A model generated the notes under the pieces. It was not told the DNA's origin. It worked only from the letters and a program-made list of their open reading frames with translations, and did not search any database. Below are positions 19,066 to 64,000 of a stretch of 64,000 nt of DNA, one piece after another. A program made the position numbers and the translations under genes. The stretch is from positions 38,674,671 to 38,738,670 of the forward strand of contig CAIIXF020000007.1 of NCBI GenBank assembly GCA_903813345.2, written 5' to 3'. Source of the stretch: Owenia fusiformis. Lineage: Eukaryota; Annelida; Polychaeta; Sabellida; Oweniidae. Position 1 is the stretch's first letter. Each line of letters begins with the position of its first letter.

Positions 19066-22000
19066 TCAGGACCGTTTGCCCATAAATGGTCCACTTGCTA
19101 AGAGAAGGTTACGTCTTGTGAAATGAAGATCTAACACAGGCGAGTTCTTTGTCTTCTGGGAACCAATCAACAGCTTGGTGTCCTCACCAGTGCTGAAGTT
19201 ATAAGAAACATGTAAATATGTAAGTATAGTCTTGATCAGATTACTAGTTCAGTGTTGTTTTATTTTCAAATTAAAAGTCATGCTTTCCTTGTTACAATGG
19301 ATGTATGCTCACAAAAATGAAGTCTTATCGTTTTTCCATAGCACTCAGGGACTTAAGTCAGAGTATAACCATGTATAACTATGTTCTAAGGGATAGACTC
19401 AATGTCTAATACCCCTCCTAAAAGAAGACTGGCTAGTTTCATCAATAAACAAATGAATTAGTTTGACGTACATGTTTGCTACAGTAGCAGTCCCAGGGGC
19501 AGTGTCCGAGTCTTGCTCTTCAAACACCTTAGCGACATCCCATAATAACACTTGGTCATCAATGCCACCTATAAATACAGAGAAACAACAATGTTCATTC
19601 CACTCTTTTCATATGAACATGTACATGTGCTTCATTCCATGCTTATTCAATTCTTGCATTTTTAATATTTTCTCAAAAGGCTGAGTCAGAATAGTGTATT
19701 TTAACGGTACTACAAATACTTTTACTGAATTATAAATCTTAAAATTAACTCTCAGCAGAGTAAATCATTTCAGTTCTTAATTTGACATCAATCTATAATT
19801 TGTAAATCTGTAATTTATTAGAAATCAATGATCAGGTTAGTAGCCAGGGGGAAGGGGAGGGGGTTTGGGCAAACCCCAAAAATCGTGCAGTTTTTCATCA
19901 TATTGATCACACTTTGAGTAATTTTGGGACAAAATTTCTCAAAGATCCCCCTTGATTCTATGAGAAACTGACCCCCTGGCAAATGCTAGCTATGGCCCTG
20001 AATGATGGATTTACCTGATGCTAATACAGCCCCCTCTCTACTGAAACACAGTGAATATACAGTGTTTGTGTGGCCCTGACCCTGAATGATGGATTTACCT
20101 GATGCTAATACAGCCCCCTCTCTACTGAAACACAGTGAATATACAGTGTTTGTGTGGCCCTGACCCTGAATGATGGATTTACCTGATGCTAATACAGCCC
20201 CCTCTCTACTGAAACACAGTGAATATACAGTGTTTGTGTGGCCCTGACCCTGAATGATGGATTTACCTGATGCTAATACAGCCCCCTCTCTACTGAAACA
20301 CAGTGAATATACAGTGTTTGTGTGGCCCTGACCCTGAATGATGGATTTACCTGATGCTAATACAGCCCCCTCCCTACTGAAACACAGTGAATATACAGTG
20401 TTTGTGTGGCCCTGACCCTGAATGATGGATTTACCTGATGCTAATACAGCCCCCTCCCTACTGAAACAGAGTGAATATACAGTGTTTGTGTGGCCCTGAC
20501 CCTGAATGATGGATTTACCTGATGCTAATACAGCCCCCTCTCTACTGAAACACAGTGAATATACAGTGTTTGTGTGGCCCTGACCCTGAATGATGGATTT
20601 ACCTGATGCTAATACAGCCCCCTCTCTACTGAAACACAGTGAATATACAGTGTTTGTGTGGCCCTGACCCTGAATGATGGATTTACCTGATGCTAATACA
20701 GCCCCCTCTCTACTGAAACACAGTGAATATACAGTGTTTGTGTGGCCCTGACCCTGAATGATGGATTTACCTGATGCTAATACAGCCCCCTCCCTACTGA
20801 AACACAGTGAATATACAGTGTTTGTGTGGCCCTGACCCTGAATGATGGATTTATCTGATGCTAATACAGCCCCCTCTCTACTGAAACACAGTGAATATAC
20901 AGTGTTTGTGTGGCCCTGACCCTGAATGATGGATTTACCTGATGCTAATACAGCCCCCTCTCTACTGAAACACAGTGAATATACAGTGTTTGTGTGGCCC
21001 TGACCCTGAATGATGGATTTACCTGATGCTAATACAGTCCCCTCTCTACTGAAACACAGTGAATATACAGTGTTTGTGTGGCCCTGACCCTGAATGATGG
21101 ATTTACCTGATGCTAATACAGCCCCCTCCCTACTGAAACACAGTGAATATACAGTGTTTGTGTGGCCCTGACCCTGAATGATGGATTTACCTGATGCTAA
21201 TACAGCCCCCTCCCTACTGAAACACAGTGAATATACAGTGTTTGTGTGGACCTGACCCTGAATGATGGATTTACCTGATGCTAATACAGCCCCCTCTCTA
21301 CTGAAACACAGTGAATATACAGTGTTTGTGTGGCCCTGACCCTGAATGATGGATTTACCTGATGCTAATACAGCCCCCTCTCTACTGAAACACAGTGAAT
21401 ATACAGTGTTTGTGTGGACCTGACCCTGAATGATGGATTTACCTGATGCTAATACAGCCCCCTCTCTACTGAAACACAGTGAATATACAGTGTTTGTGTG
21501 GCCCCTCAGTTGTCCAATCTGGTTCCCATTGGCCAAGTCCCACAACAGAACAGTCTTATCTGCCCCTGGATAGTAGGATTGGTTATTTAATTTTCAGATA
21601 CACTCCTCTTCATAAGTTTGGAAACTGGAAGTTTTCATTGGAGAGAATATTAAAGCCAATCAAAATCTTAGTTTTGTTCCTAATTACAAGTTTAGAAATT
21701 CTTGTAAAAAGTCACTGAATTTTTTTAATTGGCAAACAAAAGGCTTTAATAAGTGAACAAAAGTGAGACTTCCAGTTGCCAAACTTATGGAGAGGAGTGT
21801 GAGATTGACATTCTACAGCAATATTTACAATTGTTAACTATCTACTTACTTGCAAGATTAACTCATTTAAGACTGATATTTTAAATATAAAGAAGACAAT
21901 TTGAAGCATCATTTGGCATATACAGTTATGATGATAATGATGATTCTTTTGGTACTTACAATATACTTCAAAAATGTTTTTGGCTACTGTTTACACAGTT

Positions 22001-25000
22001 TACCTGCTGATGCAAGATATCTGCCATCTGGTGAGAATCTGAGACACTGAATTGCACCTTTATGACCTGACATCTGGCGGACACATTTGCCATTCAACAT
22101 GTCGTAAAGTCGCACAAGTCTGTCACTACAGCCTGTCGCTACATAGTTACTGTTGGGATGGAACTGTACACACTGAAAAAGCAATGAAATGTCACGATTT
22201 TAAAAGTATAATCAAATGTAGCAAAATCGCATCTATCAATAATGGATACATGCTTTTATGCTATTACCATGAAGTTTGTGTCTAAAGAATACTAGTTTCA
22301 ACATTTTCCTACTTGTCAAATCTTAAACATTGTTTTTATGTGAGGACAATAGATTGGATTCTTGGGTCTTGATGACCTTTTGACTCGTTAATATACATTA
22401 TTCCACAGGAATTGAAAATTCAAAAAAGTTCTGAGGCTATTCTGTCACAACATCAAATACAGTTTTACCTAATTTCTAGATTTGTCATTATAAATATCAT
22501 GATGTAGAAGACCAATAATATGTCTAAAACAAATTAGAATCATCCTTTAATGTTGTCACATTTTCAAATGAAATATGCAAGCAATTAAAATGCAACAAAA
22601 AAGTTTTCATTTTCATATCGCAATACAGATTTTTAATATACATGCATGTATAATGAACTTACATCAACATCTGATAGATGACCAGCAAATATCCTTAATG
22701 GCTGATAATGGTCTGTAGACCAGATTCTAGCTGTTCTATCATGCCCTCCAGACACGAAATAATGGCCATGGGGACTAAACTGTACACTCCATACTGGATA
22801 GTTGTGACCTTTGTATACCACTAGATTAGTCCATGTTTTTAAACTCCAAAGACGAACTGGAAGATAAAGGTTATCATCATAGAATAATGTGCTAGGGGCT
22901 AATCACATATAATAGCTTGTGTGCCATGTTCCAAAACTCCAAAGATGGAAGATAAAGGTTATCATCATAGAATAATGTGCTAGGGGCTAATCACATATAA
23001 TAGCTTGTGTGCCATGTTCCAAAACTCCAAAGATGGAAGATAAAGGTTATCATCATAGAATAATGTGCTAGGGGCTAATCACATATAATAGCTTGTGTGC
23101 CATGTTCCAAAACTCCAAAGATGGAAGATAAAGGTTATCATCATATAGAATAATGTACTAGGGACTAATCACATATAATAGCTTGTGTGCCATGCTCCAA
23201 AACTCCAAAGACGAACTGGAAGATAAAGGTTATCATCATAGAATAATGTGCTAGGGGCTAATCACATATAATAGCTTGTGTGCCATGTTCCAAAACTCCA
23301 AAGATGGAAGATAAAGGTTATCATCATAGAATAATGTGCTAGGGGCTAATCACATATAATAGCTTGTGTGCCATGTTCCAAAACTCCAAAGATGGAAGAT
23401 AAAGGTTATCATCATAGAATAATGTGCTAGGGGCTAATCACATATAATAGCTTGTGTGCCATGTTCCAAAACTCCAAAGATGGAAGATAAAGGTTATCAT
23501 CATAGAATAATGTGCTAGGGACTAATCACAAATAATAGCTTGTGTGCCATGTTCCAAAACTCCAAAGATGGAAGATAAAGGTTATCATCATAGAATAATG
23601 TGCTAGGGACTAATCACATATAATAGCTTGTGTGCCATGCTCCAAAACTCCAAAGATGGAAGATAAAGGTTATCATCATAGAATAATGTGCTAGGGGCTA
23701 ATCACATATAATAGCTTGTGTGCCATGTTCCAAAACTCCAAAGATGGAAGATAAAGGTTATCATCATAGAATAATGTGCTAGGGGCTAATCACATATAAT
23801 AGCTTGTGTGCCATGCTCCAAAACTCCAAAGATGGAAGATAAAGGTTATCATCATAGAATAATGTGCTAGGGGCTAATCACATATAATAGCTTGTGTGCC
23901 ATGTTCCAAAACTCCAAAGATGGAAGATAAAGGTTATCATCATAGAATAATGTGCTAGGGGCTAATCACATATAATAGCTTGTGTGCCATGTTCCAAAAC
24001 TCCAAAGATGGAAGATAAAGGTTATCATCATAGAATAATGTGCTAGGGGCTAATCACATATAATAGCTTGTGTGCCATGTTCCAAAACTCCAAAGATGGA
24101 AGATAAAGGTTATCATCATATAGAATAATGTGCTAGGGGCTAATCACATATAATAGCTTGTGTGCCATGTTCCAAAACTCCAAAGATGGAAGATAAAGGT
24201 TATCATCATATAGAATAATGTGCTAGGGACTAATCACATATAATAGCTTGTGTGCCATGTTCCAAAACTCCAAAGATGGAAGATAAAGGTTATCATCATA
24301 TAGAATAATGTGCTAGGGGCTAATCACATATAATAGCTTGTGTGCCATGTTCCAAAACTCCAAAGATGGAAGATAAAGGTTATCATCATAGAATAATGTG
24401 CTAGGGGCTAATCACATATAATAGCTTGTGTGCCATGTTCCAAAACTCCAAAGATGGAAGATAAAGGTTATCATCATATAGAATAATGTGCTAGGGGCTA
24501 ATCACATATAATAGCTTGTGTGCCATGTTCCAAAACTCCAAAGATGGAAGATAAAGGTTATCATCATATAGAATAATGTGCTAGGGGCTAATCACATATA
24601 ATAGCTTGTGTGCCATGTTCCAAAACTCCAAAGATGGAAGATAAAGGTTATCATCATAGAATAATGTGCTAGGGGCTAATCACATATAATAGCTTGTGTG
24701 CCATGTTCCAAAACTCCAAAGATGGAAGATAAAGGTTATCATCATAGAATAATGTGCTAGGGGCTAATCACATATAATAGCTTGTGTGCCATGTTCCAAA
24801 ACTCCAAAGATGGAAGATAAAGGTTATAATCATAGAATAATGTGCTAGGGGCTAATCACATATAATAGCTTGTGTGCCATGTTCCAAAACTCCAAAGATG
24901 GAAGATAAAGGTTATCATCATAGAATAATGTGCTAGGGGCTAATCACATATAATAGCTTGTGTGCCATGTTCCAAAACTCCAAAGATGGAAGATAAAGGT

Positions 25001-28000
25001 TATCATCATAGAATAATGTGCTAGGGGCTAATCACATATAATAGCTTGTGTGCCATGTTCCAAAACTCCAAAGATGGAAGATAAAGGTTATCATCATAGA
25101 ATAATGTGCTAGGGGCTAATCACATATAATAGCTTGTGTGCCATGTTCCAAAACTCCAAAGATGGAAGATAAAGGTTATAATCATAGAATAATGTGCTAG
25201 GGGCTAATCACATATAATAGCTTGTGTGCCATGTTCCAAAACTCCAAAGATGGAAGATAAAGGTTATCATCATAGAATAATGTGCTAGGGGCTAATCACA
25301 TATAAAAGCTTGTGTGCCATGTTCCAAAACTCCAAAGATGGAAGATAAAGGTTATAATCATAGAATAATGTGCTAGGGGCTAATCACATATAATAGCTTG
25401 TGTGCCATGTTCCAAAACTCCAAAGATGGAAGATAAAGGTTATCATCATATAGAATAATGTGCTAGGGGCTAATCACATATAATAGCTTGTGTGCCATGT
25501 TCCAAAACTCCAAAGATGGAAGATAAAGGTTATCATCATAGAATAATGTGCTAGGGGCTAATCACATATAATAGCTTGTGTGCCATGTTCCAAAACTCCA
25601 AAGATGGAAGATAAAGGTTATCATCATAGAATAATGTGCTAGGGGCTAATCACATATAATAGCTTGTGTGCCATGTTCCAAAACTCCAAAGATGGAAGAT
25701 AAAGGTTATCATCATAGAATAATGTGCTAGGGGCTAATCACATATAATAGCTTGTGTGCCATGTTCCAAAACTCCAAAGATGGAAGATAAAGGTTATCAT
25801 CATAGAATAATGTGCTAGGGGCTAATCACATATAATAGCTTGTGTGCCATGCATTTATTCTCAACAATGCATGTACGAGAATAAAATAATTGCAGTCTCA
25901 ATTATGATTTAAGAGTTTTTTAATGCTGTGTCAAATTGAAACTGCAATCCAATAAAACATTACACGTTTAGATCATAATGCCTACAATATCAGGGTGTGT
26001 AAGTTTCATTCAGTTCTTGCCAATTTAGCCATGGCCATAACCGACAGAAATAATAGTAATAACCTCATTTCAGCAGGCAACATAGTGAAATCTTGGCCTA
26101 TTGGCTGACACTATGTTGCCCTTTGAAATGAGGTTATTGTTTTATTGCCACAAGCAGAGTATGACATCATTAACCTTGCCAATAATACAATAGTTTCATA
26201 GGTTGTCCAAAAGGGTCAGAATTTTTTAACAGTCTCTTGCAATGATTTAGCAAATGAATGTATGCATGATGGAAGAAAAGCTCATAAATACATGTACAGC
26301 TGTAAATATCACTGTATATATCACATTATTAATGTCCTATAAAAAATTTTTACAACTGAAACATATTGCTATTACAATTTTACATGTTGCACCTAAATTA
26401 CAGTAAAATCGGCACTAAAATGGCCCCTATTTTTAAATGAGCAGCCATTTTAAAATTGGCTTTCAAGCAGAACTTCTATCCCCATTGGGTATATGTGTAC
26501 AAAATATGAACAACAAAAATGGGCCAACGGTATCTGAGTGATTTCCCGGATGGACGGACATACGTACTAGGGGTGTGAATTTTTAATCGATCATCGATTA
26601 ATTGATCGACACAAGTTTAATCGATTAAGATTCTTAATACTCAATTAACTGATTCTAAAAAAGATAATCTTCAATATCCTGCCGTGATTAAACTTATTTG
26701 ATTTCACTGACTGATTGAGACCTAATATGTCAGGTTGACATGCCAAGCTTAAAACTCAAACTGCCAAACACACTAATTCCCGTAAACCTGACGCTTACCT
26801 TTGTTGTTTTTGTGTTTTACTGATGGGCTTGAGCAAGCTATTGGTAGCACTTTTAGTCCCATAGAAGTGGATTTTCAAACTTGCTAGAAGAAAACATTTT
26901 CCTGAATCATAATTTTACTTAATGTCTTACCTTTCATTTTTTATTGACCCAGAGATAACTTTTTGCATCGATATTGAAAAAAATCAGGATGATATTACAA
27001 GCCCCAACTTTGGCTCTTCGGAAAGGACACACACATAATTGCAATTATAAATCATTACAAAGTCCTTAATAATGTTTGATTATATATGAGACAATCATGA
27101 TAGTATATATGTGTACCATATGACGAAACTACACTTGTCCAAAGCTCTTCGGAAAGTACATTTTTTAGTGTATTGCTAAATACTGTTTAACAGATTGAAT
27201 TTGAGGGAGCAATTTTTGGAGATTGTACATTTGTTTCTATTCAGGTATTCATGTTTTCGAGATTTACCACTGATTACATCATTAACTGTGATTTTTCATA
27301 GGTAAATATATGGGCGATAATATGGCAAAACATCATTAAAGTCATCACTTTAAGGTTATCATGAATGTACTTGTAGTTTTTTAGTTGCTGGGCTGGGGAC
27401 ATGTAGGCCTATGAAACAGCATTATGCACAGAAACGACTCAATTGTTGGTGGTAATTGTCAGTGAATTGAACCTATTATCACAGGAAAAATAGTGATGAA
27501 GATACAATTTTATATTTGCGGCATTCTTCATTTGCAATTTTACACTTGAGTGTTTTAAAGGGTTTTACAGTACTGTTCAAATCAAGATTCAATGTAATAT
27601 TTGTAAACATTGTGCTAATGCCTTTATACATCAGTAGAAAAGTTAGTTATAGACATCCAATACAGCATTCCTAATCAGAGACTGAATTGCTCTTCGGAAA
27701 GGACACATTTACTTTTGTAGTTCCTGTTTAAGTCTTAGTTACTTCAGTAAAGATATTTTATGTATAAAAGTTCATCAGAAAATATATTCCGGTGTGTTTC
27801 TCTTCAATATTGTTGGTAAATGCACTGTTTTGACAGAGTTAGTCTTTTCCGAAGAGCTCTTCGGAAAGGACTTTTTTCTTGTGTCGGAATTTTGAAATTG
27901 ATTTTACAGGTATATATGACAGATCAAAGCTATTTATTTGTTTTGAATATTCAAGAAACTAAATGCATTTTGTTTTAAAATAGTTTTTAGGGTATCATTA

Positions 28001-31000
28001 CTTCAGTCTTAAAATACACATGCTCTTCGGAAAAGACATTTGCGTGTCGGAAAATCAGTTAGTTATTTTGAGAGCCAATATCTCAGGAACCACTACATCC
28101 TTTTCTATAATTTTTTTAGTGACAGAATTTTAACATTCCGTACTTTTGATATCATCTTAAAAAAACTGTAAGCAAAGATTGGAAAATATGTTGAAAAATT
28201 CAGTCTTTTTTAACATAAAATTTACAACGAAATGTTACAAATGTTATAAAAACTATTATGGACACACTTGTTGCATATCATTTTAAAGCAAATTCCTTAA
28301 TCTTTCCAATGCAGCCAAATTACTTTAACTTACTCTATTCAAGTATATGTTTGAAGTATGTATGTAAAGGTAGATTTTTTCTTGGGAATTTGTTACATAG
28401 AGAATAAGGCATATTTTGATACATGAAAATTTATAAAAAAAATTATCATTCATCTTTCAAAAAAATGATATCTTCCTCAGACATATAGTGGGTATACCTA
28501 ATTAAAAAGACTGATTTCCCATCTGTATCTTAAGCCTTGCATTTTTTCTGGGTGCCAATATGAAAGTGCTACCAATAGCTTGCTCAAGCCCTGATACATC
28601 TTATTTATATATATATATATATTCAATAGAGGTATGCAATCAAATCAAACGAATGAATTATCGCCTACTACTAATTTAAAGAATTAGAAAATTGTAGGGA
28701 AATTATCTCCATCATTTATATAAGAATGATTAATCGATGATTAATCGATTAAAATATTTTTTTGATCGATTAAGTGATTTATCAACAGTGCACACCTCTA
28801 ATACGTACGTAGGGACGAACGAGGCGTTCTCTATATCCCTCCAAACTTCGTTCAATTGGATAATAAACAAGCCCAGAGTGACCCACCAAACACTTACTTG
28901 TTCCATCCTCTGAGCCTGATATAAGATAATGTTTGTCAGGAGAGAAGCTGGTTGAATAAACTGGCCCAGAGTGACCCACCAAAAGACTTACTTGTTCCAT
29001 CCTCTGAGCCTGATATAAGATAATGTTTGTCAGGAGAGAAGCTGGTTGAATAAACTGGCCCAGAGTGACCCACCAAAAGACTTACTTGTTCCATCCTCTG
29101 AGCCTGATATAAGATAATGTTTGTCAGGAGAGAAGCTGGTTGAATAAACTGGCCCAGAGTGACCCACCAAAAGACTTACTTGTTCCATCCTCTGAGCCTG
29201 ATATAAGATAATGTTTGTCAGGAGAGAAGCTGGTTGAATAAACTGGCCCAGAGTGACCCACCAAAAGACTTACTTGTTCCATCCTCTGAGCCTGATATAA
29301 GATAATGTTTGTCAGGAGAGAAGCTGGTTGAATAAACTGGCCAAGAGTGACCCACCAAAAGACTTACTTGTTCCATCCTCTGAGCCTGATATAAGATAAT
29401 GTTTGTCAGGAGAGAAGCTGGTTGAATAAACTGGCCCAGAGTGACCCACCAAAAGACGCGATTCGGAGGCTGATCGATCATCCATCATCCTCTCTAGAAC
29501 ATCATCTGGAAATAGAAAACAAATAAATGAGACATTATTTAAACATAAACAAAATAATGGTACGTGATTGCTGCTCCAAATTGTTATCAATTTATTTCAG
29601 AGACTCCCCACATAGGCGGGGGGCCGGAAATTTGAATGGTTTATGGTCCCAGGGGTTGGTTGAGTTCTTTGTCCTGGAAGTATTGAGAGGCAGATATGCA
29701 TGATTGCTGTACTAAGTCGCCGATTTAGTATGTTAATGTAATATACATGTACATACTAAAGGGGTTAACTTGTTCAACTTACCTTTCAAATAACATGAGT
29801 TAATAACATCATGTATGTACTTGGGCATTGATAAGTATAAAACAACAAGTATAGAAAGGTTACTACAACATTTATCATATAACATGATGTAATTTGTCTG
29901 CGGCAAGGAAGAAAAGACCTTATAAAAGCTGTCCTTTTTAAACATCATGGCAGTGATACCTGTGGTTGACTTTAATGATTATGGCCTCCATATTGATGCT
30001 GAGCACAGCCCAACTGATGAACAACTACAAGAGCTTGCAGAGGATGTGTATAAGGCATTCTCTGGGGTGGGCTTTATGTATATCAAGAATCATGGCATAT
30101 CAGCTGATTTGGTGAGAAATGTTAACTACATGTACATGTGCAGTTATATCAAACCATTCACTGGCTAATTAATATAACAAGAACTTGCAGAGGATGTGTA
30201 TAAGGCACTGACTGGGGTGGGCTTTATGTATATCAAGAATCATGGCATACCAGCTGATTTGGTGAGAAATGTTAACTACATGTACATCTGCAGTTATATC
30301 AAACCATTCACTGCCTAATTAATATAACAAGAGCTTGCAGAGGATGTGTATAAGGCACTGACTGGGGTGGGCTTTATGTATATCAAGAATCATGGCATAC
30401 CAGCTGATTTGGTGAGAGATGTTAACTACATGTACATGTGCAGTTATATCAAACCATTCACTGCCTAATTAATATAACAAGAGCTTGCAGAGGATGTGTA
30501 TAAGGCACTGACTGGGGTGGGCTTTAGGTATATCAAGAATCATGGCATACCAGCTAATTTGGTGAGAAATGTTATATGTTAGCTGATGTCATATGCATGT
30601 ATTTGTCATTGCATTAATTCAACTGCCACGATGTGCTTTTTTCAATCTAAAAGAATTTTGTTTCAGATCAAAAGAATGGAGAGTATTGCGAAGGAGTTCT
30701 TTAACTTACCAAAGGAAGAAAAAGAAAGTTTTGCTTTACTGCAGATCTCAAACATGGATATACAGGGATTGGAGGACAAAAGTGTGTATTTGTGTTTTGT
30801 TAAAGTTCCAAGATTTTTTCTTGCATGTTTTTGTATTTATCAATAATATAACACAAACACAATTCAGATTGATGTGGAGGACCTTTGATTGGGAAACATT
30901 ATTGGCCCCATCGACATATTAACTGATGACAAGAGATTTTCATACAAAGTGGTCTATGAATCTTTTCTTCATAATGTGATTCTTCAACCTAAATTTCTGA

Positions 31001-34000
31001 AAGCTGCTGTAACTGCTAGCAATTAAAAATTTCTCATTACTCGTTTCAGGTTAGGTGAATCCTTTGATGTAAAAGAAACTTATGATTTTGAATATTGGCT
31101 CCCTCCAGTAAGTATGTAAAAGAGATTCCAAATTTGACACATATGTTTGGCCATCAACTCTTCTCAATTCATCATACATTATAACTGAAATTTAGACAGT
31201 TTTCAACACCATTGTACAGGTCAAAGCTGAGAATATAATGCCAATTGCAAGCAATTAATCACACTCATTCATTACAACATATGAAAAAACAATGAACTAT
31301 AATATTCCAATTGAAAAGAACAGAAATATTGATGAATTTACAAAAAGAATAAATAATTCAATTGCACAAATGCGCTATTTTATTCAGAAATGGCCCAAGA
31401 ATGTGACTGGTTTTGATGAAGGATTTACAGAAATATTCAAAGAATTTTCCAATTTGCTTAAGCGAGTACTGGGGGTGATGGCATTATCATTACAACAGGT
31501 AGATAACAAGGCAATGACATGCAAAATGTCACAGCCTACCATTTGTTACAGATGCCAAACACTGAACACCATCAATAAAAAATGAGTTGGAGACTATAAC
31601 ATACATCTACAGGGGGTAAGAAAAATATTTAGGATATCCTCAAAATAAAAGCAGCTCTATAGATGACTGATACACAACTTATATTGTAGTCTTACCCAAT
31701 GTTATCAAGGTGTGATATGTGAAACTTGTTTTTTAATTTCAAAAAGTGGTTTTTGAAGGACTTTTTGAATTCATTAAACTTAAAGCATAATATATTCTTC
31801 CTTTTAACCCAGTGTCACAATCGACATCGGTTTAATTTTGAAGTTAAGCATATTTAGAAAAGATTAACAAATAAAAATAATTTTCAATTTTTTCAAAAAG
31901 TTTTTGCCACCTGAATAAGTCATAATGACATCACTTAGGTTCCAAAATATTTTTGATATGCTTAAACATTGAAGTTGCACATTAGATATGGCATTTTATT
32001 ACTGAAATAGTGTGTCCTTTGTTCAATCGTTGCACTGGTGTTAAAAAATAATCTTTTTTGAAATGTATGGTTGAATATTTGATGATTAAAATATTTCAAC
32101 TTTTTTGAAAAATGGTGGGAAATTTGAATATTTGAGAAATACTTTTTCAATTTTTTTTCTTCAAAAATCTCTAAAATAACTTTTAAAAGTCATGATAATT
32201 AGTAAATTAAGTAAATGAATGATAAAAACATATTTTCAAACTTTACACGGGGACTTTTAAGGGCAGGGTCAAATAATTGACATCCATATGTCGATGATAG
32301 TACTTTCGCAAGGGGTGAATGGTTTTTTCTTAAAAGTAATTTTGTATACCTTAAAAATTTGCCCTACACCATTTCATTGGTATATTCTCAATATTTTATA
32401 TTAAAAAAATGTTTATTTATAAATAAAAGCTTTACAACAGATTAAAAAGACATTTTTATCAAATCCACTAAGGTTATCTTGCCATAAAAGTTGTTTGTAT
32501 GTTACTAGTATTTTCTGAAGGAGATGGTTTTGACTTTTTGCCTCTGTTATATGTAAACATCAAGTGTCTTGGTGGAAAGTCATGATAATGCAATTATATG
32601 TATATGTACAGAGTAACACAGCATAGAAATATCCATGACTGGGAACAAATCTTGGTGGGGTTTGTTATAGAAAGTAGTTAGAATCTTTAATTTCAAAACA
32701 AACAGATTTAACCTTGCCAAAATAATATCTTATTCTGAGGAACACATTGTTGGGCTCTGAGATGGAAGGTTAGACAAAGATAAGGTTCTATAATTAAAAA
32801 AAGTTGGAAATATAAGATTGGAGTTGAAATAATAAATAAAGAAAAGACAAAAACAACTTTGTTTTGTGTTCAAGGAGTTTGAGTTTAAAAATACTTCTAG
32901 GTGAAAATGGACAGAATTATAACAAAAACTTCATCCAACAATTGTTATTTTTCTGTAAAGGAGAGAACTCTCTTCACCAAGCTCCATAACACTTTAACAA
33001 AGAAGACGAGGACACAGGTGAGAATATTAAACTATCCAAAGATGCCAGAAGATTTTACAAAGACTGAGAATCAAATGCGCCTAGGGGAACATACAGACTG
33101 GGGCACTGTCACCTTCATTGCACAAGATAATATGGGTGGCTTGCAAGTAAGTGCAAAGTATTTGAAAACATAACTACTTGACATTTTACTCTATCAAGCC
33201 ACAAAGATGGTTGCATCGTAGTTCTGATTTTATGTTTAGGTGAAATCACGCTCTGGAGACTGGATTGATGTCACACCTAAAGATGGTTGTATCATAGTTC
33301 TGATTACATGTTTAGGTGAAATCACGCTCTGGAGACTGGATTGATGTCACACCTAAAGATGGTTGTATTATAGTTCTGATTTTATGTTTAGGTGAAATCA
33401 CGCTCTGGAGACTGGATTGATTACACACCTAAAGATGGTTGTATCATAGTTCTGATTACATGTTTAGGTAAAATCACGCTCTGGAGACTGGATTGATGTC
33501 ACACCTAAAGATGGTGGTATGATAGTTCTGATTACATGTTTAGGTGAAATCACGCTCTGGAGACTGGATTGATGTCACACCTAAAGATGGTTGTATTATA
33601 GTTCTGATTACATGTTTAGGTGAAATCACGCTCTGGAGACTGGATTGATGTCACACCTAAAGATGGTTGTATTATAGTTCTGATTACATGTTTAGGTGAA
33701 ATCACGCTCTGGAGACTGGATTGATGTCACACATAAAGATGGTGGTATTATAGTTCTGATTACATGTTTAGGTGAAATCACGCTCTGGAGACTAAATTGA
33801 TGTCACACCTAAAGATGGTTGTATCATAGTTCTGATTACATGTTTAGGTGAAATCACGCTCTGGAGACTGGATTGATGTCACACCTAAAGATGGTTGCAT
33901 CATAGTTCTGATTACATGTTTAGGTGAAATCACGCTCTGGAGATTGGATTGATGTCACACCAAAAGATGGTTGTATTATAGTTATGATTACATGTTTAGG

Positions 34001-37000
34001 TGAAATCACGCTCTGGAGACTGGATTGATGTCACACCTAAAGATGGTGGTATTATAGTTCTGATTACATGTTTAGGTGAAATCACGCTCTGGAGACTGGA
34101 TTGATGTCACACCTAAAGATGGTTGTATAATAGTTCTGATTACATGTTTAGGTGAAATCACGCTCTGGAGACTGGATTGATGTCACACCTAAAGATGGTT
34201 GTATCATAGTTCTGATTACATGTTTAGGTGAAATCACGCTCTGGAGACTGGATTGATGTCACACCTAAAGATGGTTGTATTATAGTTCTGATTGCGGAAC
34301 TCATGCAGAGATGGACTTCAGACAAATTCCAAGCTAATGTGAGACATTGTTAAGGACGTGGTGGACTAAATAAAGCAAATTTTTAATTTTTGTAAAATGT
34401 ATTTTAAATGAAAGATCTTTCAATTTCCTACAAAATAAGACCAAAAAAACAATATGCTTCCGACTTAGTTTTTTCGTTACAGGCCTTGCAAAAGTACCTC
34501 CAAAACACCTTATTTCGCACATTTTTATGGGCAAAAATGTGCTTCCCATGTTATTTCAATGGGGATTTTACTGTTAACAGCACTGTTTTTACATTAATAA
34601 TTCTTAACTTTCAAAATTTTTAAATTTTCCTAAATTTTAACAAGTTTTAGAGAATATCAAGTAGATTCAGATAAAAGAATAAAAAAATGGGGTCACTGTC
34701 TTTGTTTTTATGCTAGAATCATTCTCATGGAACCTATTTTAAGGTATTTTTCTCACTTTTAATACATTTTAGGTGTTTTGCCAACACAGAGACTGAAGCA
34801 TCATATTACTTGTGAACCTCATCTCACCGACATTTAATAAAAAATATTCCGATTGATGTCTTCTTAGATTGTCACAGTTTATATTCACATGATACTTGCA
34901 TTGCAGAAATCACTATAGCCTACATGTACATCTGAAATATGGTTGCTATGGCAACGGGAACTCGAATCTCTTATGGCCCATTTTTATGTGTATTCATTTT
35001 TAGTATAGTACATAAATTATGTTATGTCATGGATAAAATGTCGAGGTTTTACCTTTAATACCAGTGAAAGAGCAAGTTGATTATGGCAGAGGCAAAGTCA
35101 TTAGATGCAGAACTGTCAAACTTCTTTTGTTTCCATGGTAACATGTTAAATATGTGAAGAACTTTTGTCAAGAGCTCTAATTGCTGGTTAATATTTGTGA
35201 ATGGAGCTTTAGACCGTATCTGTAATCATGTATCATCACAAAACAGCTCTATTAACTTGCCCAGGGACATTTTATCCAAGATAAAATTACTTTCAATGGT
35301 TGCCATGGAAACAGTTTGTTTATTGTCTCTTGAAAATAAGATGTTGCATCTTTTATATAAGATCTTTTTACTACTTCCATTGCAAATAATGTAATACTTC
35401 TAGGAGAAATGAAAGAATCCCCTCGCCTAATCAAGGAGCCCCTATTTATTTTACGTGCACTGAAATGATAACCAGTTCATTGTTACCATTGCAACTAGTT
35501 TGTTAATGAATATTGTTTCAATACAGTCTAGACATAATATAATTGATTACACTTTTTGGAATATACTTTTATTGCAAAACTTATTCTGTAAAATACCCAT
35601 ATAAACATAGGCAATCATTAAATACAGATATATCGATAAACAGTGATATTGACAGTCATCATATGCAGTGATATCAACAAAAAATATGTAGTTATATTGA
35701 CAATCACTATGTACAGTTATATTGACAATCATTACTTACAGTTATATTGACAATCATTATGTTCAGTGATATAGACAACCACTATGCAGTTATATTGCCA
35801 ACCATTGTGTATAGTTATATTGACAATCATTATGTTCAGCAATATAGACAATCACTATTTTCAGTTAAATTGACCAACTTTACTTACAGTTATATTGACA
35901 ATTATTCTGTACAGTTATATTGGCAATCATTATGTTAAGTGATATAGACAACCTCTATGTACAGTAATATTGACAATTATTCTGAACAGTTATATTGAGA
36001 ATCACTATGTACAGTAATATAGACAATCACTATGTGCATTATGTTGACAATCATAACATTCAGTTATCTTGACAACCATAATGTTCAGTGATATACATGT
36101 AGATAACCTCTATGTAGAGTTATATTGACAATCATTACATTCAGTTGTATTGACAATCATTCTGTGCAGTTATATTGACAATCATTATGTTCAGTGATAT
36201 AGACAACCACTTTTGTACATTTATATTGACAATCATTACTTACAGTTATATTGACAATTATTCTGTACAGTTATATTGACAATCACTATATACAGTAATA
36301 TTGACAATCTTTATTAACAGTTATATTGGCAATCATTCTGTATAGTTATATTGACAAGGATTGTGTTCAGTGACAATCACTATGTTAAGTAATATTGACA
36401 ATCATTACTTACATTTACATTGGCAATCATTCTGTACAGTTATATTGACAACCATTTACCATTGTACTCAGTGATATTGACCTGTTAAAAATCACTATTT
36501 ACAGTAACAATATTGACAATCATTACTTACACTTACATTGACAATCATTCTGGACAGTTATAGTGACAACCATTGTGTTCAGTGACAATCTCTATGTTCA
36601 GTAATATTGATAATCATTACTTACATTTACATTGGCAATCATTATGTACAGTTGTATTGACAACCATTGTGCTCAGTGATATTGACAATCACTATGTACA
36701 GTAACACTATTGACAATCATTACTTACACTTACATTGACAATCATTCTGGACAGTTATATTGATAACCATTTTACAAATACAAATACAAATAACCATTTT
36801 GTTCAGAGATATTGACAATCACTATTTGTTGAAATATCGACAATCATAATCTACACTAATGTTGACAATTGCTGTGTTCGGTGATATTGGAGTCCACGTT
36901 TGGAGGTTTCTATTAGACTAAGACTTGAATGTCTCCGACAATGTTACTATTCTAACCTCTTCAATCTCCTAAAGCATTATGAAGATGAAATCTGGAAATC

Positions 37001-40000: not shown

Positions 40001-43000
40001 CCAAGCATCAGCATACCAAATTTTAATGCAATCTCTCAACTGGTATTTGAGTTATCAAAGATAAGATTTGTTACAAAAAAATGGTGGCCATTTTGAAATT
40101 AAGTGCCATCTTGAAAGATATTTTTTACAAAAAATGATGGCCATTTTGAATTGAGCAGGCACATTGAAAATTGTTCTCGAGCAGAGGTCTTTCACCCATA
40201 AGCATAAGTGTATAAACAATTGGATGGACAACTTAATAGACTGCTTCCCTACAAACTTTGTTCAGTGGGATGATCACATTAGCATGGTGAGAGTTTCATT
40301 TCAAATATCTATTATCGAAAAACAATGTTCTAAAGTAGATACACTTAACCCAGAGATTTATGTTATGTTGTGTTTTGTTTACTACAAAAGTTTTAACCCT
40401 TAATGAACTTTTTATCAAAAGCAAATTTAAATGTTCTATTGGCAAGGTCAAATAGACATAAAACAGCTGTTTACTTTCAAAAGTTAAGGTTATTAATACT
40501 TAACTTATAAATGTATATGCATTCTAAGGAATATGGCAGAAACTCCTATAGTTGACTTCAAGGATTATGGCCTCCATATTGATGCTGAGCACAGCCCAAC
40601 TGATGAACAACTACAAGAGCTTGCAGAGGATGTGTATAAGGCACTCTCTGGGGTGGGCTTTATGTATATCAAGAATCATGGCATACCAGCTGATTTGGTG
40701 AGAAACGTTAACTACATGTACATGTGCAGTTATATCAAACCATTCACTGCCTAATTAATATAACAAAAGCTTGCAGAGGATGTGTATAAGGCACTGACTG
40801 GAGTGGGATTTATGTATATCAAGAATCATGGCATATCAGCTGATTTGGTGAGAAACGTTAACTACATGCACATGTGCAGTTATATCAAACCATTCACTGC
40901 CTAATTAATATAACAAAAGCTTGCAGAGGATGTGTATAAGGCACTCACTGGGGTGGGCTTTATGTATATCAAGAATCATGGCATACCAGCTGATTTGGTA
41001 AGACTGTTAACTACATGTACATCTGCAGTTATATCAAACCATTCACTGCCTAATTAATATAACAAGAGCTTACAGAGGATGTGTATAAGGCACTGACTGG
41101 GGTGGGCTTTATGTATATCAAGAATCATGGCATATCAGCTGATTTGGTGAGAGAGGCTAGCTGCATGTATGCCAAATCTATTTATTCATTTGGTAAATAT
41201 TGAACAATGTACATCCTACATAATCATTTCCCTTTCTGAGCTACCACATGCATACAGTAAAACCTGTCAAATCCAAACGCTCTGGGACAAGCATAAAGTG
41301 TTCAGATAAGCACATGTTCACATTTCAAAGTTTTATAAACATGTATGTCAACGGGACATGACAAAATTGGAAATGAGAAAAAAAGTTCACATTTAGAGGT
41401 GTTTCGTTATACATGTACAGGTTTCACTGTATCTCGTATAATGATAATTTTATGCAATGCATTCCAGTTCAAGAGAATGGAGAATATTGCAAGGGAATTT
41501 TTCAGCTTACCAAGGGAAGAGAAGGAGAAATGTGGCTTCACAGAAGATGGGAAATATGGCTATTCTGGTGTTGCAGAACAAAAGTATGATGTTTTTAAAA
41601 AACACCCACTCATAGATTTTTTAATAGTTAGGGACGTAATATATGTTCTAACCCAGAGATTTACAAACTGAATTAAGAAATCCCAAATTTAATGTTTGAA
41701 CATCTGAAATAAGGATGAGTGATTTATTGGTATCATATCTGAGCTATTAGAGAGGTTAAGCAACACTACTTTTTACAATGTAAACCTAGAACGGGAAGGC
41801 GCACACAGTTTTTTCGCAGGATGTAATGTCATATTGTTCTACTTTTTTCCCAGTTTACGTACATCCAAACATGAAAAATCAAAGTCTAGGTAAGTCGTTC
41901 CATAAAGGATTTTTCGTACTTTATCAAGTTCGATTGAGATAAATATGATATAGGTCGAATGCATAAATATGTTTGACACAAATCTGTGTATATATCGAGA
42001 TCATTTGTTTCCAATCTAATCAAATATAACTTGAATATTGAGCCACCTATTTCAAATGTAAAATCTGATCAGATTACATGCATGGCAATAGCCCACATGT
42101 CAACTCATCTTAATTCTACTATACATATTGTGACACTATAGTAATAAAACTACGAATGCTTTAAAGAATTTCAGATATTATTGCGTCCTGTAAGATTCAA
42201 GATGTCATAGAACACTGCCAGGCTGTAAAACATCTCCTTTGTTAACACTTTCATCAATTTGTCAATAGAGTAATATTTTTACACTTTTAAAGTAGAAAAT
42301 AAAACGAAAGGCCACTAAGAAAAAGAAAAAAATCATTTTGAGGTTTGCGTTTACGTTACGTCTGAAGTGCTCGGCTTAAAGCACTTTTGTTCATAGTACA
42401 TAAATGGGAACGTTAAGGTTTAAACTTGCCATTCACGTCATAAAAAATCATCTTGCTTAACCTCTCTATTGCAACATTTGAACACATGATCACTACTACA
42501 GACTACTACATCTAAAACTTTATTTAATGATGGATATCTCTTTTTGACAAGAAATACAGTTCAACAGTTTTCATTCTGCCTCCATTAAATCAGCCATTTG
42601 CAACAGTCCTCTTACCAAACTTGGTATTTTCACAACACCTCTATTCATTTAGCCATTTTAGTCGTCTCACCAAACTTGGTATTTTCACACCGCCTCCATT
42701 CATTTAGCCATTTTAGTTGTCTCACCAAACTTTGTATTTTCACACCACTTCCATTCATTCAGCCATTTGCAACAGTCATCTCACCAACTTTGGTATTTTC
42801 ACAACACCTCCATTCATTTAGCCATTTTAGTCGTCTCACCAAACTTGGTATTTTCACACCGCCTCCATTCATTTAGCCATTTTAGTTGTCTCACCAAACT
42901 TTGTATTTTCACACCACTTCCATTCATTCAGCCATTCGCAAGAGTAGTCTTACCAAACTTGGTATTTTCACAACACCTCTATTCATTTAGCCATTCGCAA

Positions 43001-46000
43001 CAGTCGTCTTACCAAACTTGGTATTTTCACAACATCTCTATTCATTTAGCCATTCGTAATAGTTGTCTTACCAAACTTGGTATTTTCACAACACCTCTAT
43101 TCATTCAGCCATTCGCAACAGTCATCTCACCAAACTTGGTATTTTCACACCACTTCCATTCATTCAGCCATTCGCAACAGTGGTCTTACCAAACTTGGTA
43201 TTTTCACAACACCTCTATTCATTCAGCCATTTGCAACAGTCGTCTTACCAAACTTGGTATTTTCACAACATCTCTATTCATTCAGCCATTTGCAACAGTC
43301 ATCTCACCAAACTTGGTATTTTCACAACACCTCCATTAAATCAGCCATTCGCAACAGTCATCTCACCAAACTTGGTATTTTCAGGTTGGGTGGATCAGTT
43401 GATGTAAAAGAACTTTATGATTATGAATACTGGCTCCCTCCTGTGAGTACCTCAGTTATTAATAATCTTTAGGTTGATGTGACTTCTTTCCTTTAAATAC
43501 ATATCTTTAATTACATTGGATCTACTACTCTTGGAATCTCCAACCTAAGTTTGTAATTTCTTTAATTGTTTGACATTGAAATTCAAATTTATGCAAGTAA
43601 CTGAAGTATTACTAGTATATACCCCAAGGTATACTCATACTGTAAAATATAACAAATAATTTACTTAACAGAAATGGCCTGAAAATGTAAATGGTTTCAA
43701 AGAAGTCTTTACAGAAATGTTCAGAGAATTCACCAAATTGTTTGTGAGAGTGCTTGAGGTGATGGCATTATCATTAAATCAGGTTTGTACAAAAAAGTAA
43801 ATGTATTAAGTCATACTATAAAATGATTTAGGTTTTCTATGTTGTTTTTGATAAGGTTGATGTCACAATAAAGTAACTTATTAACCACATCAACTGTATC
43901 CAAAAAATAAGTTTCTATAAAAATGTTTTAGTGAAAAGTTAGAACACCTAAGACACAACATGTGAAAGCACTTTGACAGAAAGGTTATAATTATCAGCAG
44001 TATGACAAAGAAAAATTGCTTCTGCCCACCAAACAATTTTGAAAACATACAATATGAAGTGTATGCTCATAATATTCTTATTTCCATGCGTCTAAAGGAG
44101 AGAACCTTCTTTACAAAACTCCATAATATTCATACCAAGAAGTCAAAGACCCAGCTTAGGATATTAAACTATCCAAAAATGCCAGAAGATTTTAAAAAGA
44201 CTGAGAATCAAATGCGCTTAGGAGAACACACAGATTGGGGTACAGTCACCTTCATTGCACAGGATAGTGTAGGCGGGTTTCAGGTGAGTCAGTAGTTTCA
44301 TGGAAATGAGTGCTTTTGGAGATACAGAGTTAAACATATGACTTGCCTAATTTCATGTACATGTATATAGGTTTGAGAACTTTAGGCATAGAGTTAAGTG
44401 TTATCTTCATGTTAACCATATTTTCATGTTTAGGTGAATTCACGCTCTGGAGGCTGGATTGATGTCACACCTAAAGATGGTTGTTTTATAGTTCTGATTA
44501 CATGTTTAGGTGAAATCACGCTCTGGATGCTGGATTGATGTCATACCAAAAGACGGTTGTGTTATTGTTCTGATCGCGGACCTAATGCAGCGATGGACTT
44601 CAGACAAGTTTCAGGCAAATGTGAGACATTATTTCAATCTCTGAGTCAAGGACAGACGATAAGGTGTATTCAAAGTGATTTATTTTTTTATTTGGGAGCA
44701 CCTTAAACAAACCGTGGAATCATTTTGTATTATCATTTGTGTTATTATTTCCATCACATTGAATTTCGCAATGGGTTCATAGGAACTTGTGACAAAGTTT
44801 GATTTTTAGTTCATAGATGTTTGAAACTTAGGTCATAATAATCTTGAATACTCTACAAATTGCTTACAAATACAGAAATCTTAGAATAAATACTTCTGTT
44901 ATGCTGATATCATCATAAGGGCAGAATGTTTTGGGAACTTGCAGCTTTGTTTACTGTAGACATTGAAGATGCATCATTTCTTGGCATGTGGATATAAACA
45001 ATTTTCGAATAAGACATCATAATGTAAAACAAGAAGAAATTGTTCACTTCCATTTAATTTTTGTGAAATTAACTGAGGCTTCTAAGATGGAAAATGTTAT
45101 TAATTTAGTAATTTATCAATATTACCTTGAACTCAATGACACAATCTTAAACTTCTATGGATGTTGCAGAATGCTAAAGTTAAACTTAGATAAAGATAAC
45201 TTGCATTCAATTGAACATGTTTTATAGTAAGGACTGATGGTAGATTTGACAGGTAAATCACATAGCCAATGGCAAGAAGTGGTTCCAAGAAAGGGGGAAG
45301 TCTAGTCTATTGAGTGACAGTATAACTTTGAATGAAGCCAAGAAGCTATCATATTCAATTAATGATGTTTTGTCTAGCTTCCATAGATTCATAAACATAT
45401 TGGTATATGATGTCATTTTTGTAAAACAATAGGATATGATAAATTGATGGGTGATGATTAGTGGTCGGACTCGCCTGAAAATCTCCACTCGAGTGGGCCA
45501 TGAAAAACCACGATTATATTCGCGATTTGACTTAGTTGAGTTACTTCCGGTTTCAGTTTCCCAAGTAGCGGCAGAATTCATCAATTTGATCAAGTCTTTC
45601 AAGTGCCTCTATACTTTTTATTGTCTAAATCATATTGCACATCCCGATAGATCGTTAAGGTTCACCCCTAGTTCCCTATAGATAGTAAAACTTACCGGAT
45701 AAATAGTGAAAACAAACTTCGTCAATCCAGAAAGTTCCAGGATGCACCGCGGTAGACAAATTTCAAAATTCCCGGCTGTTGGATATTCCCAGAATGCATC
45801 AAACCGGAAATGAAACTTTTGCAAACTGGAAATGAAACTTTTGCATAAAAATAACGAATGCAGAATAAAATCCAAGTATGTTTGTCTTCCACACATGGCA
45901 TTAAATAGAAAATAAGTTGTATTCTATACAGATTAAGCAGAACATTACAACTATAAGCATTGAAATTGCGAATAGGAGAGACGAATCGCGAGTCAAGGTA

Positions 46001-49000
46001 AGGTGAAAACGAGTGAAAAATATTTTTTTGGTAAAAATTTAAAATCGTGAGTTCAAGTTTTCAACTCGATCAATTGAATTTAAGGACAAATGCGAGTAAA
46101 ACTCGAGTGCACGAGTCAGTCTTCCAACCACTAGTGATGATGGACAAATTGACCAAAAACCAGTATTTTGTAAGTGAAATATACATTTTGATGTATGAAA
46201 AACATTGTAATGTAATTGTATAAGGAATTTGCTAACTTTTATTGTTTAAAATATTATAAAACATGTATTTTAAAGAGATAATGACTAAAATGGTTTAAAT
46301 GAGTAGGGTAAAAAGTTCATGAGAATTGTCTGAACCGAGGTTCTGGGATTCAGTTATTAATCATACCTGTCTCAAAAGTTTCAACAAAAACTGAAATAAA
46401 TGGGAACTTTTCAACTTTTTAGAAAATAATGTGGGCAGAAATTTGGCATGTTGATAATTAATCTTCATATAATTTTTCACACTTCTTTCCGGCCAATTCT
46501 TGTTAATGGGTTTTTAGGGATTTCATTGGATAAGACCCCTTATTTTGGCGGCGACAACATAAAAAAAAATTGGGTATAAAAGGGGCAATTTTGTCTGAAA
46601 TCCTCGGAACCTCGTTGCGTGAACTCGGGACAAACTAAAAACTGTAAGTAGCCGATTGAAATGATATTTTTGGACTTTAACTTTTCTTGAATAAATTAAT
46701 ATTTTAAACTATATTTGTTTTCATGTTTTGTAAAAGATAGAGAGACTCAACTACGCCACAAACTCTCTTGAAAAATATTACAATAAACTGTATCCAAATA
46801 TTCCAAAGATTGAACTCTGTTTAATAATGTTAATATTCTGATCTTTTCCAGCCACACAGAGTGGTGAAGCTGCCATGTGAACCAGAAGACATGGAAGGGG
46901 GAGAAAAGTCTAGATTCAGTATGATCTACTTTGGGAATCCTGATTATGATGCAATGATTAGCAGTATTGGTGACTCAAAATATGAACCTATTAATGCTGG
47001 AGACCATTTTGAGAATCTTTTAACCAAAACATTTGGTTACTAAAACCAATCATATTGATACTAAGACTAATAACCATGTAGATTATAGGGAACCATTTCA
47101 TATTATTTCATAATTGTGGTCCAGAATTAATATGACATATGCTAAACAACTAGAAATTGACAGCTCCACGGAGTAGCTAATCCCAACGAACACTATATTC
47201 ATGAATCTGTATATGTCACAATGTAATATTTACCAACTACCCTTGATTAAATTGGCAGATATTAAAAGACATCCATTCATGGGCGTAGCGCCCGGTACAC
47301 CTAGTACTCACAGGCGTACCAGATGATTGCAAATACGCTCCAAATACAACCAAAAATCCAAAATTTTCCTAGGGGGAGAACCCCCAGACCCGCCTGAACT
47401 CTCGTTTTTTGCATTGTTCAAATAGCTAGCGTACTACTCATAAAAATAGCGCTTTGCCCATGACATTAGAGATTTATTATCAATATTTGAGTATAACATA
47501 GCCATACTTTGAAGAGGTCAGAAAATTATTGTGAAACCCCACATAAGGTGGCCATTTTGAATTTTACGAGATCCGATTCAGAAAAATGATACAATATATG
47601 CTATCTGCTCCTTTAATTTGAGTATAATAAAGCTATACTTCAGAAAGATCTCAATATTAACAAAAATTCCTGTTTTCCCAATTTAGCATACAGAGTCCAT
47701 GGGGGGTCAGGTTGAAAACATGGAATGTATGTGAAATGAATATATGTCGTGAAAACACTACCAAATTTTCAATGATCAGTAATATTTATTGTTACTTTGT
47801 TTGAAAATGAAACTTAGATTTTTGCGAAATGTTCCTGCCATTTTTAAAGCGACAGCCATCTTGGGATTTTTTGCATAGAACTATTCACCAGTCTTTCCAC
47901 TAAATATGAAGAAAATCCTTCTACTATAGTACTCGAGTTATCTTCCGGACAGACGGACGGATGACTGATGGACGGACAGACAGAGAGCTTCACTATATCC
48001 CTACAGAACTTTGTTCATTTGGATAATGAATCATAAAATAGGCCTACCTGCTTCGATGTCTATTATACTGAGATCTGTTGGTCCCTTTACTGTACGAAGT
48101 CTATTTGGAGTGAGGCTCCATATGCGTATAGAAGAGTTAGAAAAACCTGCAGCTATTAGAGATGAATCTTCTGTGAACTCAATACACGTCACCCTACAAC
48201 ATTAGGAAGTGGGTTATACAATATGAAAAGCTTAAACACAGTCACAACATCAGTTCTATTAGATTTACATTTGCATTGGATGATTTACCTACTGGATTAT
48301 CTCACTAATTATTTGAGGTCTCTCGGGCATTTTTCTTAACATATTTTACTGCACATATTTTTACCCCCAAATTTTTTGAATAGTAAGTATGTAGCTTCAA
48401 TTTACTCATCCTGGTTCTAACTTACTCATGGTATCCATTGAGGAATGTATAGAAACATATAGAAGGTTGAGTAGTTGGTCCTAACTTACTCATGGTATCC
48501 ATTGAGGAATGTATAGAAACATATAGAAGGTTGAGTAGTTGGTCCTACCTTACTCGTGGTATCCATTGAGGAATGTATAGAAACATATAGAAGGTTGAGT
48601 AGTTGGTCCTAACTTACTCGTGGTATCCATTGAGGAATGTATAGAAACATATAGAAGGTTGAGTAGTTGGTCCTACCTTACTCGTGGTATCCATTGAGGA
48701 ATGTATAGAAACATATAGAAGGTTGAGTAGTTGGTCCTAACTTACTCGTGGTATCCATTGAGGAATGTATAGAAACATATAGAAGGTTGAGTAGTTGGTC
48801 CTAACTTACTCATGGTATCCATTGAGGAATGTATAGAAACATATAGAAGGTTGAGTAGTTGGTCCTAACTTACTCTTGGTATCCATTGAGGAATGTATAG
48901 AAACATATAGAAGGTTGAGTAGTTGGTCCTAACTTACTCGTGGTATCCATTGAGGAATGTATAGAAACATATAGAAGGTTGAGTAGTTGGTCCTAACTTA

Positions 49001-59698: not shown

Positions 59699-64000
<4,302 letters not shown>

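Follow-up and report, generated by a model that had tools for sequence, protein, structure and literature searches.

Tandem repeats that extend over exon-intron boundaries are known from amphioxus, where they have been called mirages; the available text of the main report gives repeat units of 10-72 bp in Adh3 and of 150-160 bp in globin genes, splice signals in many but not all of the units, and a concerted evolution that spares the edges of the clusters (PMC3087553). The same text describes length and somatic instability of these repeats and indicates that regular splicing is unaffected as judged by RT-PCR, with the extra sites regarded as potential cryptic sites (PMC3087553; undisturbed splicing also in PMC3902484). 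Troponin C is a further host, and imperfect repeats are mentioned in PGBD5, in the accessible part of a second report (PMC3902484). In the open-licence literature, junction arrays were found for amphioxus only and none for annelids or Owenia; the available text of a study on earthworm metallothionein reports intronic minisatellites, junction arrays not being described there (PMC12783039).

The window analyzed here is a stretch of 64,000 nucleotides from the annelid Owenia fusiformis (C7:38674671-38738670) that contains a gene read on the minus strand and identified as TAF5, an identification already proposed by the first-pass annotation and upheld by the following data. The joined translation of three exons matches solved chains of TFIID subunit 5 (6f3t_A being the best, E 2.3e-58), general WD40 chains scoring higher, and database protein matches to the joined exons have TFIID subunit 5 records on top, the best one being P0001, a partial O. 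fusiformis protein of 401 aa. The TAF5 exons of the window, nine in number between 49803 and 19066, reproduce P0001 exactly over 401/401 residues when spliced at their first donors. They include Eb (about 49312-49193), E1 (29368..29505), E2 (22663..22856), E3 (22004..22172), E4 (21443..21565, 123 nt), E5 (19472..19568, with its acceptor directly upstream of 19568) and E6 (19066..19192), the last coding exon, all on the minus strand. Further 5' exons of the gene lie on the same strand at C7:38801485-38804845, 77 kb upstream of the first TAF5 exon of the window; they align to residues 97-265 of a TAF5 homologue, and their joined translation finds proteins with PF04494, which places the N-terminal NTD2 region in the same gene. 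No deposited Owenia protein is named for these 5' exons among 69 matches. The contig of P0001 (39,792,004 bases) and C7 (39,776,147 bases) may be two versions of one chromosome.

Array A (19990..21501, minus strand) is composed of 18 units of 84 bp, each made of the final 59 nt of E4 and of 25 nt of the next intron. Examination of the window with TRF returned the interval 19996-21504 with a period of 84, 18.0 copies and 98% matches, and the 17 intervals between units are all exactly 84 nt long, with anchors running from 21501 to 20073 in the minus-strand reading. Unit 1 is the genuine 3' end of E4 (21565-21443), whose donor GT is at 21442-21441. The donor, CATCAG/GTAAAT (the slash marking the junction), recurs in 84-nt steps on the minus strand (20013..21442) and is intact in 17 of the 18 units, the sole broken one being that of unit 8, where GAT replaces GGT at 20854. 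The idea that each unit ends in the same donor thus applies to 17 units as regards the donor itself and needs correction as regards its place, since it stands 25 nt before the end of the unit. Mean pairwise divergence is 1.2% over the first 17 units (1.15% in the exon part, 1.35% in the intron part), in agreement with the very high identity noted at first sight, and unit 18 passes into other intron sequence over its final few bases, near 19995; array A therefore combines homogenised units with a diverged edge at the 3' end of unit 18. It is a genuine feature of the window and has the anatomical features of a mirage. In the intron directly upstream of E4, a 33-nt inverted repeat (21600-21632 and 21768-21800, 94% complementary, arms 135 nt apart) resembles a small inverted-repeat element.

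Misassembly of tandem repeats happens easily and the copy number comes from one consensus, so that an array inflated or even created by the assembly has to be envisaged. However, the broken donor, the A/G variants and the diverged last unit are interspersed in a way unlike mechanical duplication, and seven arrays with different units occur in this one gene. If the window belongs to the published assembly, the PacBio reads, whose N50 of 25.75-30.75 kb is given in the available text of that study, are far longer than the 1.5 kb of the array (PMC9977687). Taken together, these observations make an assembly origin very improbable. Most likely, array A is a mirage-type minisatellite grown over the 5' splice junction of TAF5 E4, the copies of which are mostly or only removed with the intron. 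A stretch reaching from inside E4 to 25 nt into the intron would have been duplicated in tandem, presumably through slippage or unequal exchange, and then multiplied and homogenised. As the array extends into the intron, the exon-side copy is unit 1, and the spliceosome would use the first donor (21442) mostly or only, the remaining copies leaving with the intron, as suggested by the deposited protein and by the sister arrays of the gene.

The reading frame of array A opens another perspective. When any of the 18 donor positions, of which 17 are intact, is spliced to 19568, one open frame results that reaches the natural stop at 19066, and the unspliced read-through frame (19986..21593, minus strand) is open for 535 codons, running through the intron end, E4 and 17 added 28-residue modules before a stop. 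These results corroborate the first-pass annotation on an 18-unit array of 84 bp with junctions in frame and no stop in the exon or intron part of the unit, as well as on the singularity of array A, the other donor arrays of the window never being both in frame and stop-free. From there, the same annotation went on to propose TAF5 isoforms with n x 28 extra residues, and this part finds no support: P0001 has n = 0, the 120 listed homologues are without the module and the frame is at chance level, as detailed below. A working isoform generator, in which distal donors would be used at a meaningful rate, nevertheless has several arguments on its side, namely 17 intact donors with CATCAGGTAAAT in common, all in the frame of the next exon, 18 units without indel or stop, and a deposited protein of another gene that suggests the use of a last-unit donor (see below). 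The donor of array A is also not weak, with 5.3 bits vs 1.9-5.9 for other TAF5 donors on a position matrix, and E4 with one extra unit would be 207 nt long, which is close to the 194 nt of E2. Splicing of mini-introns via cryptic acceptors inside the unit was considered and discarded, the best such acceptor shifting the frame as read by eye.

The module encoded by one unit is GHTNTVYSLCFSREGAVLASGKSIIQGQ. Its GH...LASG portion is half of a WD40 repeat, and the rest is replaced by KSIIQGQ, seven residues derived from the intron; its best stretch matches positions 2-29 of the 39 positions of the Pfam WD40 profile and thus falls short of a full-length blade. Its description as WD40-like is consequently right for these profile positions and not for the remainder of the blade, which is absent, and a single-sequence structural model with five added modules looks beta-helix-like, a propeller being also possible. 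In two comparisons, no WD40 chain appeared among the 50 matches listed in each, and stacked modules may still form a propeller. Because each module duplicates the two strands with which a blade begins, n of them could be accommodated as a loop between blades, the last blade staying intact. On the other hand, P0001 reads LASG/GIDDQ at E4/E5, i.e., n = 0 without extra module, and this one deposited protein therefore carries the regular E4/E5 junction of the host gene. The module is likewise absent from all 120 listed homologues of 2806 matches, a check in which candidates of about 293-933 aa cover n <=17 on the 401-residue fragment and n <=about 9 on full-length TAF5; P0042 has ASGKS once, and longer module words are absent from it.

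The weight of P0001 depends on how gene models were obtained. According to the available text of the genome study, the O. fusiformis annotation relied on STAR, StringTie, Portcullis, Trinity, Mikado, Augustus and PASA, with RNA-seq support for 31,678 of 31,903 transcripts, and its gene models combined short-read data with ab initio prediction and hints from Capitella (PMC9977687). We assume that P0001 derives from this RNA-seq-aided annotation, and models based on short reads could hide 84-nt increments. Extra protein modules from array A are possible on the strength of the sequence, but we judge long TAF5 isoforms to be rare or absent.

Array A is one of seven junction arrays of TAF5, four of which are in the window and three in the 5' exons outside it (locus L032, G000:C7:38800800-38805300). 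Five are donor arrays (84 x 18, 94 x 6.4, 64 x 13.2, 125 x 4.4 and 74 x 2) and two are acceptor arrays (88 x 33.8 and 53 x 8.6). Within the window, array C (28862..29457, minus strand, 94 bp x 6.4) is on the donor side of E1 and has six intact donors, array I (48412..49260, minus strand, 64 bp x 13.2) is on the donor side of Eb, and array B (22858..25851, minus strand, 88 bp x 33.8) is on the acceptor side of E2, with an exon-like stretch in its unit as seen by eye. The arrays of L032 are a 125-bp donor array (C7 38803790-38803238), a 74-bp donor array (C7 38802387-38802238) and a 53-bp acceptor array (C7 38802019-38801564). In arrays C and I, too, P0001 uses the first donor, and in array B the last acceptor, at the exon end. 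The periods of the four other donor arrays (64, 94, 125 and 74) are not multiples of 3, so that one extra unit shifts the frame, and in the 125-bp array the CAG codon of unit 1 is replaced by TAG in units 2-4, which leaves unit 1 as the only coding one among these. Judging from these sequences, first donors must be the rule in the four other donor arrays, because an extra unit shifts the frame and the downstream 125-bp copies carry a stop. Free use of distal donors would hence damage the protein at the sister arrays of the same gene, which speaks against the isoform generator. TAF5 is essential in other animals and yeast; given this and the out-of-frame sister arrays, the choice of the first donor would be expected most of the time in array A too, and we see no reason for an exception. 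On the acceptor side, TATCTTCCAG is retained in 2/34 copies of array B, one of them being the true site at 22866, and the other 32/34 copies are without the AG of the true site and show TATCTTCCA followed by a base other than G. These decoy acceptors look as if they had been silenced once, the silenced form then spreading.

The singular frame of array A was confronted with chance expectation, by computing for each donor array the probability that a random donor and intron start of the same length would be in frame and open. For seven donor arrays (five of TAF5, one of a 2OG-Fe(II) oxygenase gene, whose paralogue was not counted, and one of an esterase-like gene), these values range from 0.06 to 0.25 and sum to 1.06 of 7 expected; one was observed, and the probability of at least one is 0.69. 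For the TAF5 donor arrays alone, 0.80 of 5 are expected (P 0.59). One observed case for 1.06 expected sets the in-frame property at chance level, so that chance accounts for both the period of 84 and the lack of a stop. Selection for the frame is unnecessary as an explanation, 1.06 of 7 donor arrays being in frame and open by chance. Furthermore, we give little weight to the absence of stops and indels, because so few mutations separate the units; at about 1.2% divergence few stops would, in our judgement, be expected anyway. With a deposited protein at n = 0, the module in 0/120 listed homologues within the limits of n given above and a frame at chance level, the isoform generator appears unlikely.

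An indication in favor of distal donors comes from another part of the window. Two paralogous 2OG-Fe(II) oxygenase genes (30027-39121 and 40530-47037, plus strand) are nested in a TAF5 intron, and both have a donor array of 150 bp and an acceptor array of 76 bp, the donor units being at most 97% alike between the two genes. In the first gene, these are array D (30027..30574, plus strand, 150 bp x 3.7), with a stop in the intron part of its unit, and array F (33203..34293, plus strand, 76 bp x 14.4), the last copy of which (34228) is crossed by P0121. Their respective counterparts are array E (40613..41152, plus strand, 150 bp x 3.6) and array G (44425..44574, plus strand, 76 bp x 2). P0130, a partial deposited Owenia protein, starts in the last unit of array D (30487-30570) and is joined to the exon of the paralogue at 44510; it represents either a chimeric transcript, the use of a distal donor or a faulty model. 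As it joins the last unit of array D, P0130 counts against a strict first-donor view and suggests that distal donors may be used at times. Two more arrays are on the plus strand, namely array H (42579..43383, 59 bp x 13.9), which ends at an acceptor by visual reading of the junction and has no visible exon sequence, and array J (63689..63965, 57 bp x 4.9), a donor array at an exon of the esterase-like gene, also assigned by eye, whose read-through stops at the first donor. Separately, related repeats of ~135 bp with AAAATGGCCGCC motifs occur at 8164-8715, 17453-18347 and 55301-55998, apparently in both orientations, and are probably one dispersed satellite-like element.

One may also wonder whether the arrays act in cis, as donor decoys, by slowing splicing or through intron retention leading to a truncated TAF5, without production of isoforms. 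Seven arrays are indeed an odd decoration for a single gene, and with the intron retained, translation would continue across 17 added modules before meeting a stop, as in the 535-codon frame. However, the arrays are dissimilar in period, in copy number and in the side, donor or acceptor, on which they lie, and the 76-bp arrays F and G of the two paralogues have 14.4 and 2.0 copies, respectively, in one haplotype. Both features look like drift and render a cis-regulatory role most improbable. Our preference thus goes to a mirage whose copies leave with the intron.

The window as a whole is unusually rich in repeats of this kind. High-identity minisatellites, defined by a period of 40-200, at least 3 copies and at least 85% matches, cover 16.9% of it with 11 arrays, vs 1.3-3.5% with 10 arrays in four other sample sets of the same genome (271 kb in total, with some overlap). 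Nearness to the chromosome end finds no support as a cause, coverage being 1.7% in six 5-kb samples taken from the terminal 1.02 Mb of the contig vs 3.5% in six internal ones. Nine of the 11 arrays of the window touch a splice junction, A, B, C, F and I according to deposited proteins and D, E, H and J by our own reading. The mere overlap between arrays and junctions does not reach significance (4/14 arrays vs 2.42 expected, P 0.21; 5/14 with a tolerance of 5 nt, P 0.08). When a junction is required to be at most one unit from the edge of an array, the 22 junctions of deposited models give 4/14 vs 1.01 expected (P 0.014), array I falling short by 6 nt. Inclusion of the four self-read junctions of D, E, H and J, which is a biased addition, gives 8/14 vs 1.15 expected (0/20000 shuffles), and 8/14 vs 2.57 (P 0.0011) with 34 further dummy junctions.

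A comparison was made with 62 loci from myosin, kinase and Rpb2 families. Exon-edge copies of at least 22 nt occur in 5/62 of these loci, only L008 having at least 3 copies, which are intron-only by our own reading, and in 6/9 TAF5 exons of the window, four of them with at least 7 copies. Many-copy exon-edge arrays are found for 4/9 TAF5 exons of the window and, as arrays with exon content, for 0/62 other exon loci (Fisher 1.3e-4, or 6.1e-4 counting L008), in a comparison where many of the kinase loci have the appearance of long single exons, ten myosin loci overlap in four groups, L001 and L032 (TAF5 itself) are left out and an exon-bearing array of L020 is missed by the test. This L020 array (2031-3237; G000:C4 24504887-24506093) is a 122-bp x 9.9 repeat in a myosin gene, in the unit of which an entire small exon flanked by its two splice sites seems to be contained, with a stop in some copies, and the junction-array phenomenon may on this account reach beyond the TAF5 locus. 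Elsewhere in the genome, twelve successive matches to one and the same N-terminal part of the myosin head, about 330-1940 bases apart (G000:C9:37986009-37994334), are arranged like a cluster of mutually exclusive exons.

Constructs are the usual means of studying how the splicing machinery chooses among many near-identical donors. TAF5 of O. fusiformis offers a native test, with five donor arrays of about 2, 4, 6, 13 and 18 copies, one of which is in frame, and two acceptor arrays, and long cDNA reads of this gene can reveal how donor choice depends on position. A bolder scenario, which we hold to be distinctly unlikely, is that Owenia TAF5 varies in length by 28-residue steps, through choice among 17 identical donors together with heritable or somatic copy number, and bears a beta-helix-like spur on its propeller in TFIID. 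If true, a mirage array would be a reservoir that adds a repeat domain to an essential protein without a new exon.

With respect to known systems, WD40 repeat families grow by duplication of whole blades, whereas the module of array A is a partial blade followed by KSIIQGQ. The ABCA7 VNTR resembles array A in being a tandem repeat within a gene that is linked to altered splicing, but the available text presents it as intronic, while the units of array A each copy the true donor and coding sequence (PMC5954066). The closest relatives are the amphioxus mirages of Adh3, troponin C, BflGb6 and BflGb9, whose units, as far as their published descriptions in the available text extend, contain like array A an exon end and the adjoining intron, with many intact AG or GT signals. 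As in array A, units are homogenised with the edges excluded, and as among the Owenia arrays at large, both donor and acceptor sides are affected. The amphioxus host mRNA is reported to be normal. Differences from what that text describes reside in the annelid host, in the copy numbers (up to 34, vs 6 and 3 in two haplotypes of BflGb6) and in the seven arrays of the single gene TAF5, one of which is in frame and stop-free for every unit. The mirage phenomenon is thereby extended to an annelid, within a local minisatellite hotspot over TAF5, and array A is a new case of the known mirage mechanism in a gene unusually rich in such arrays.
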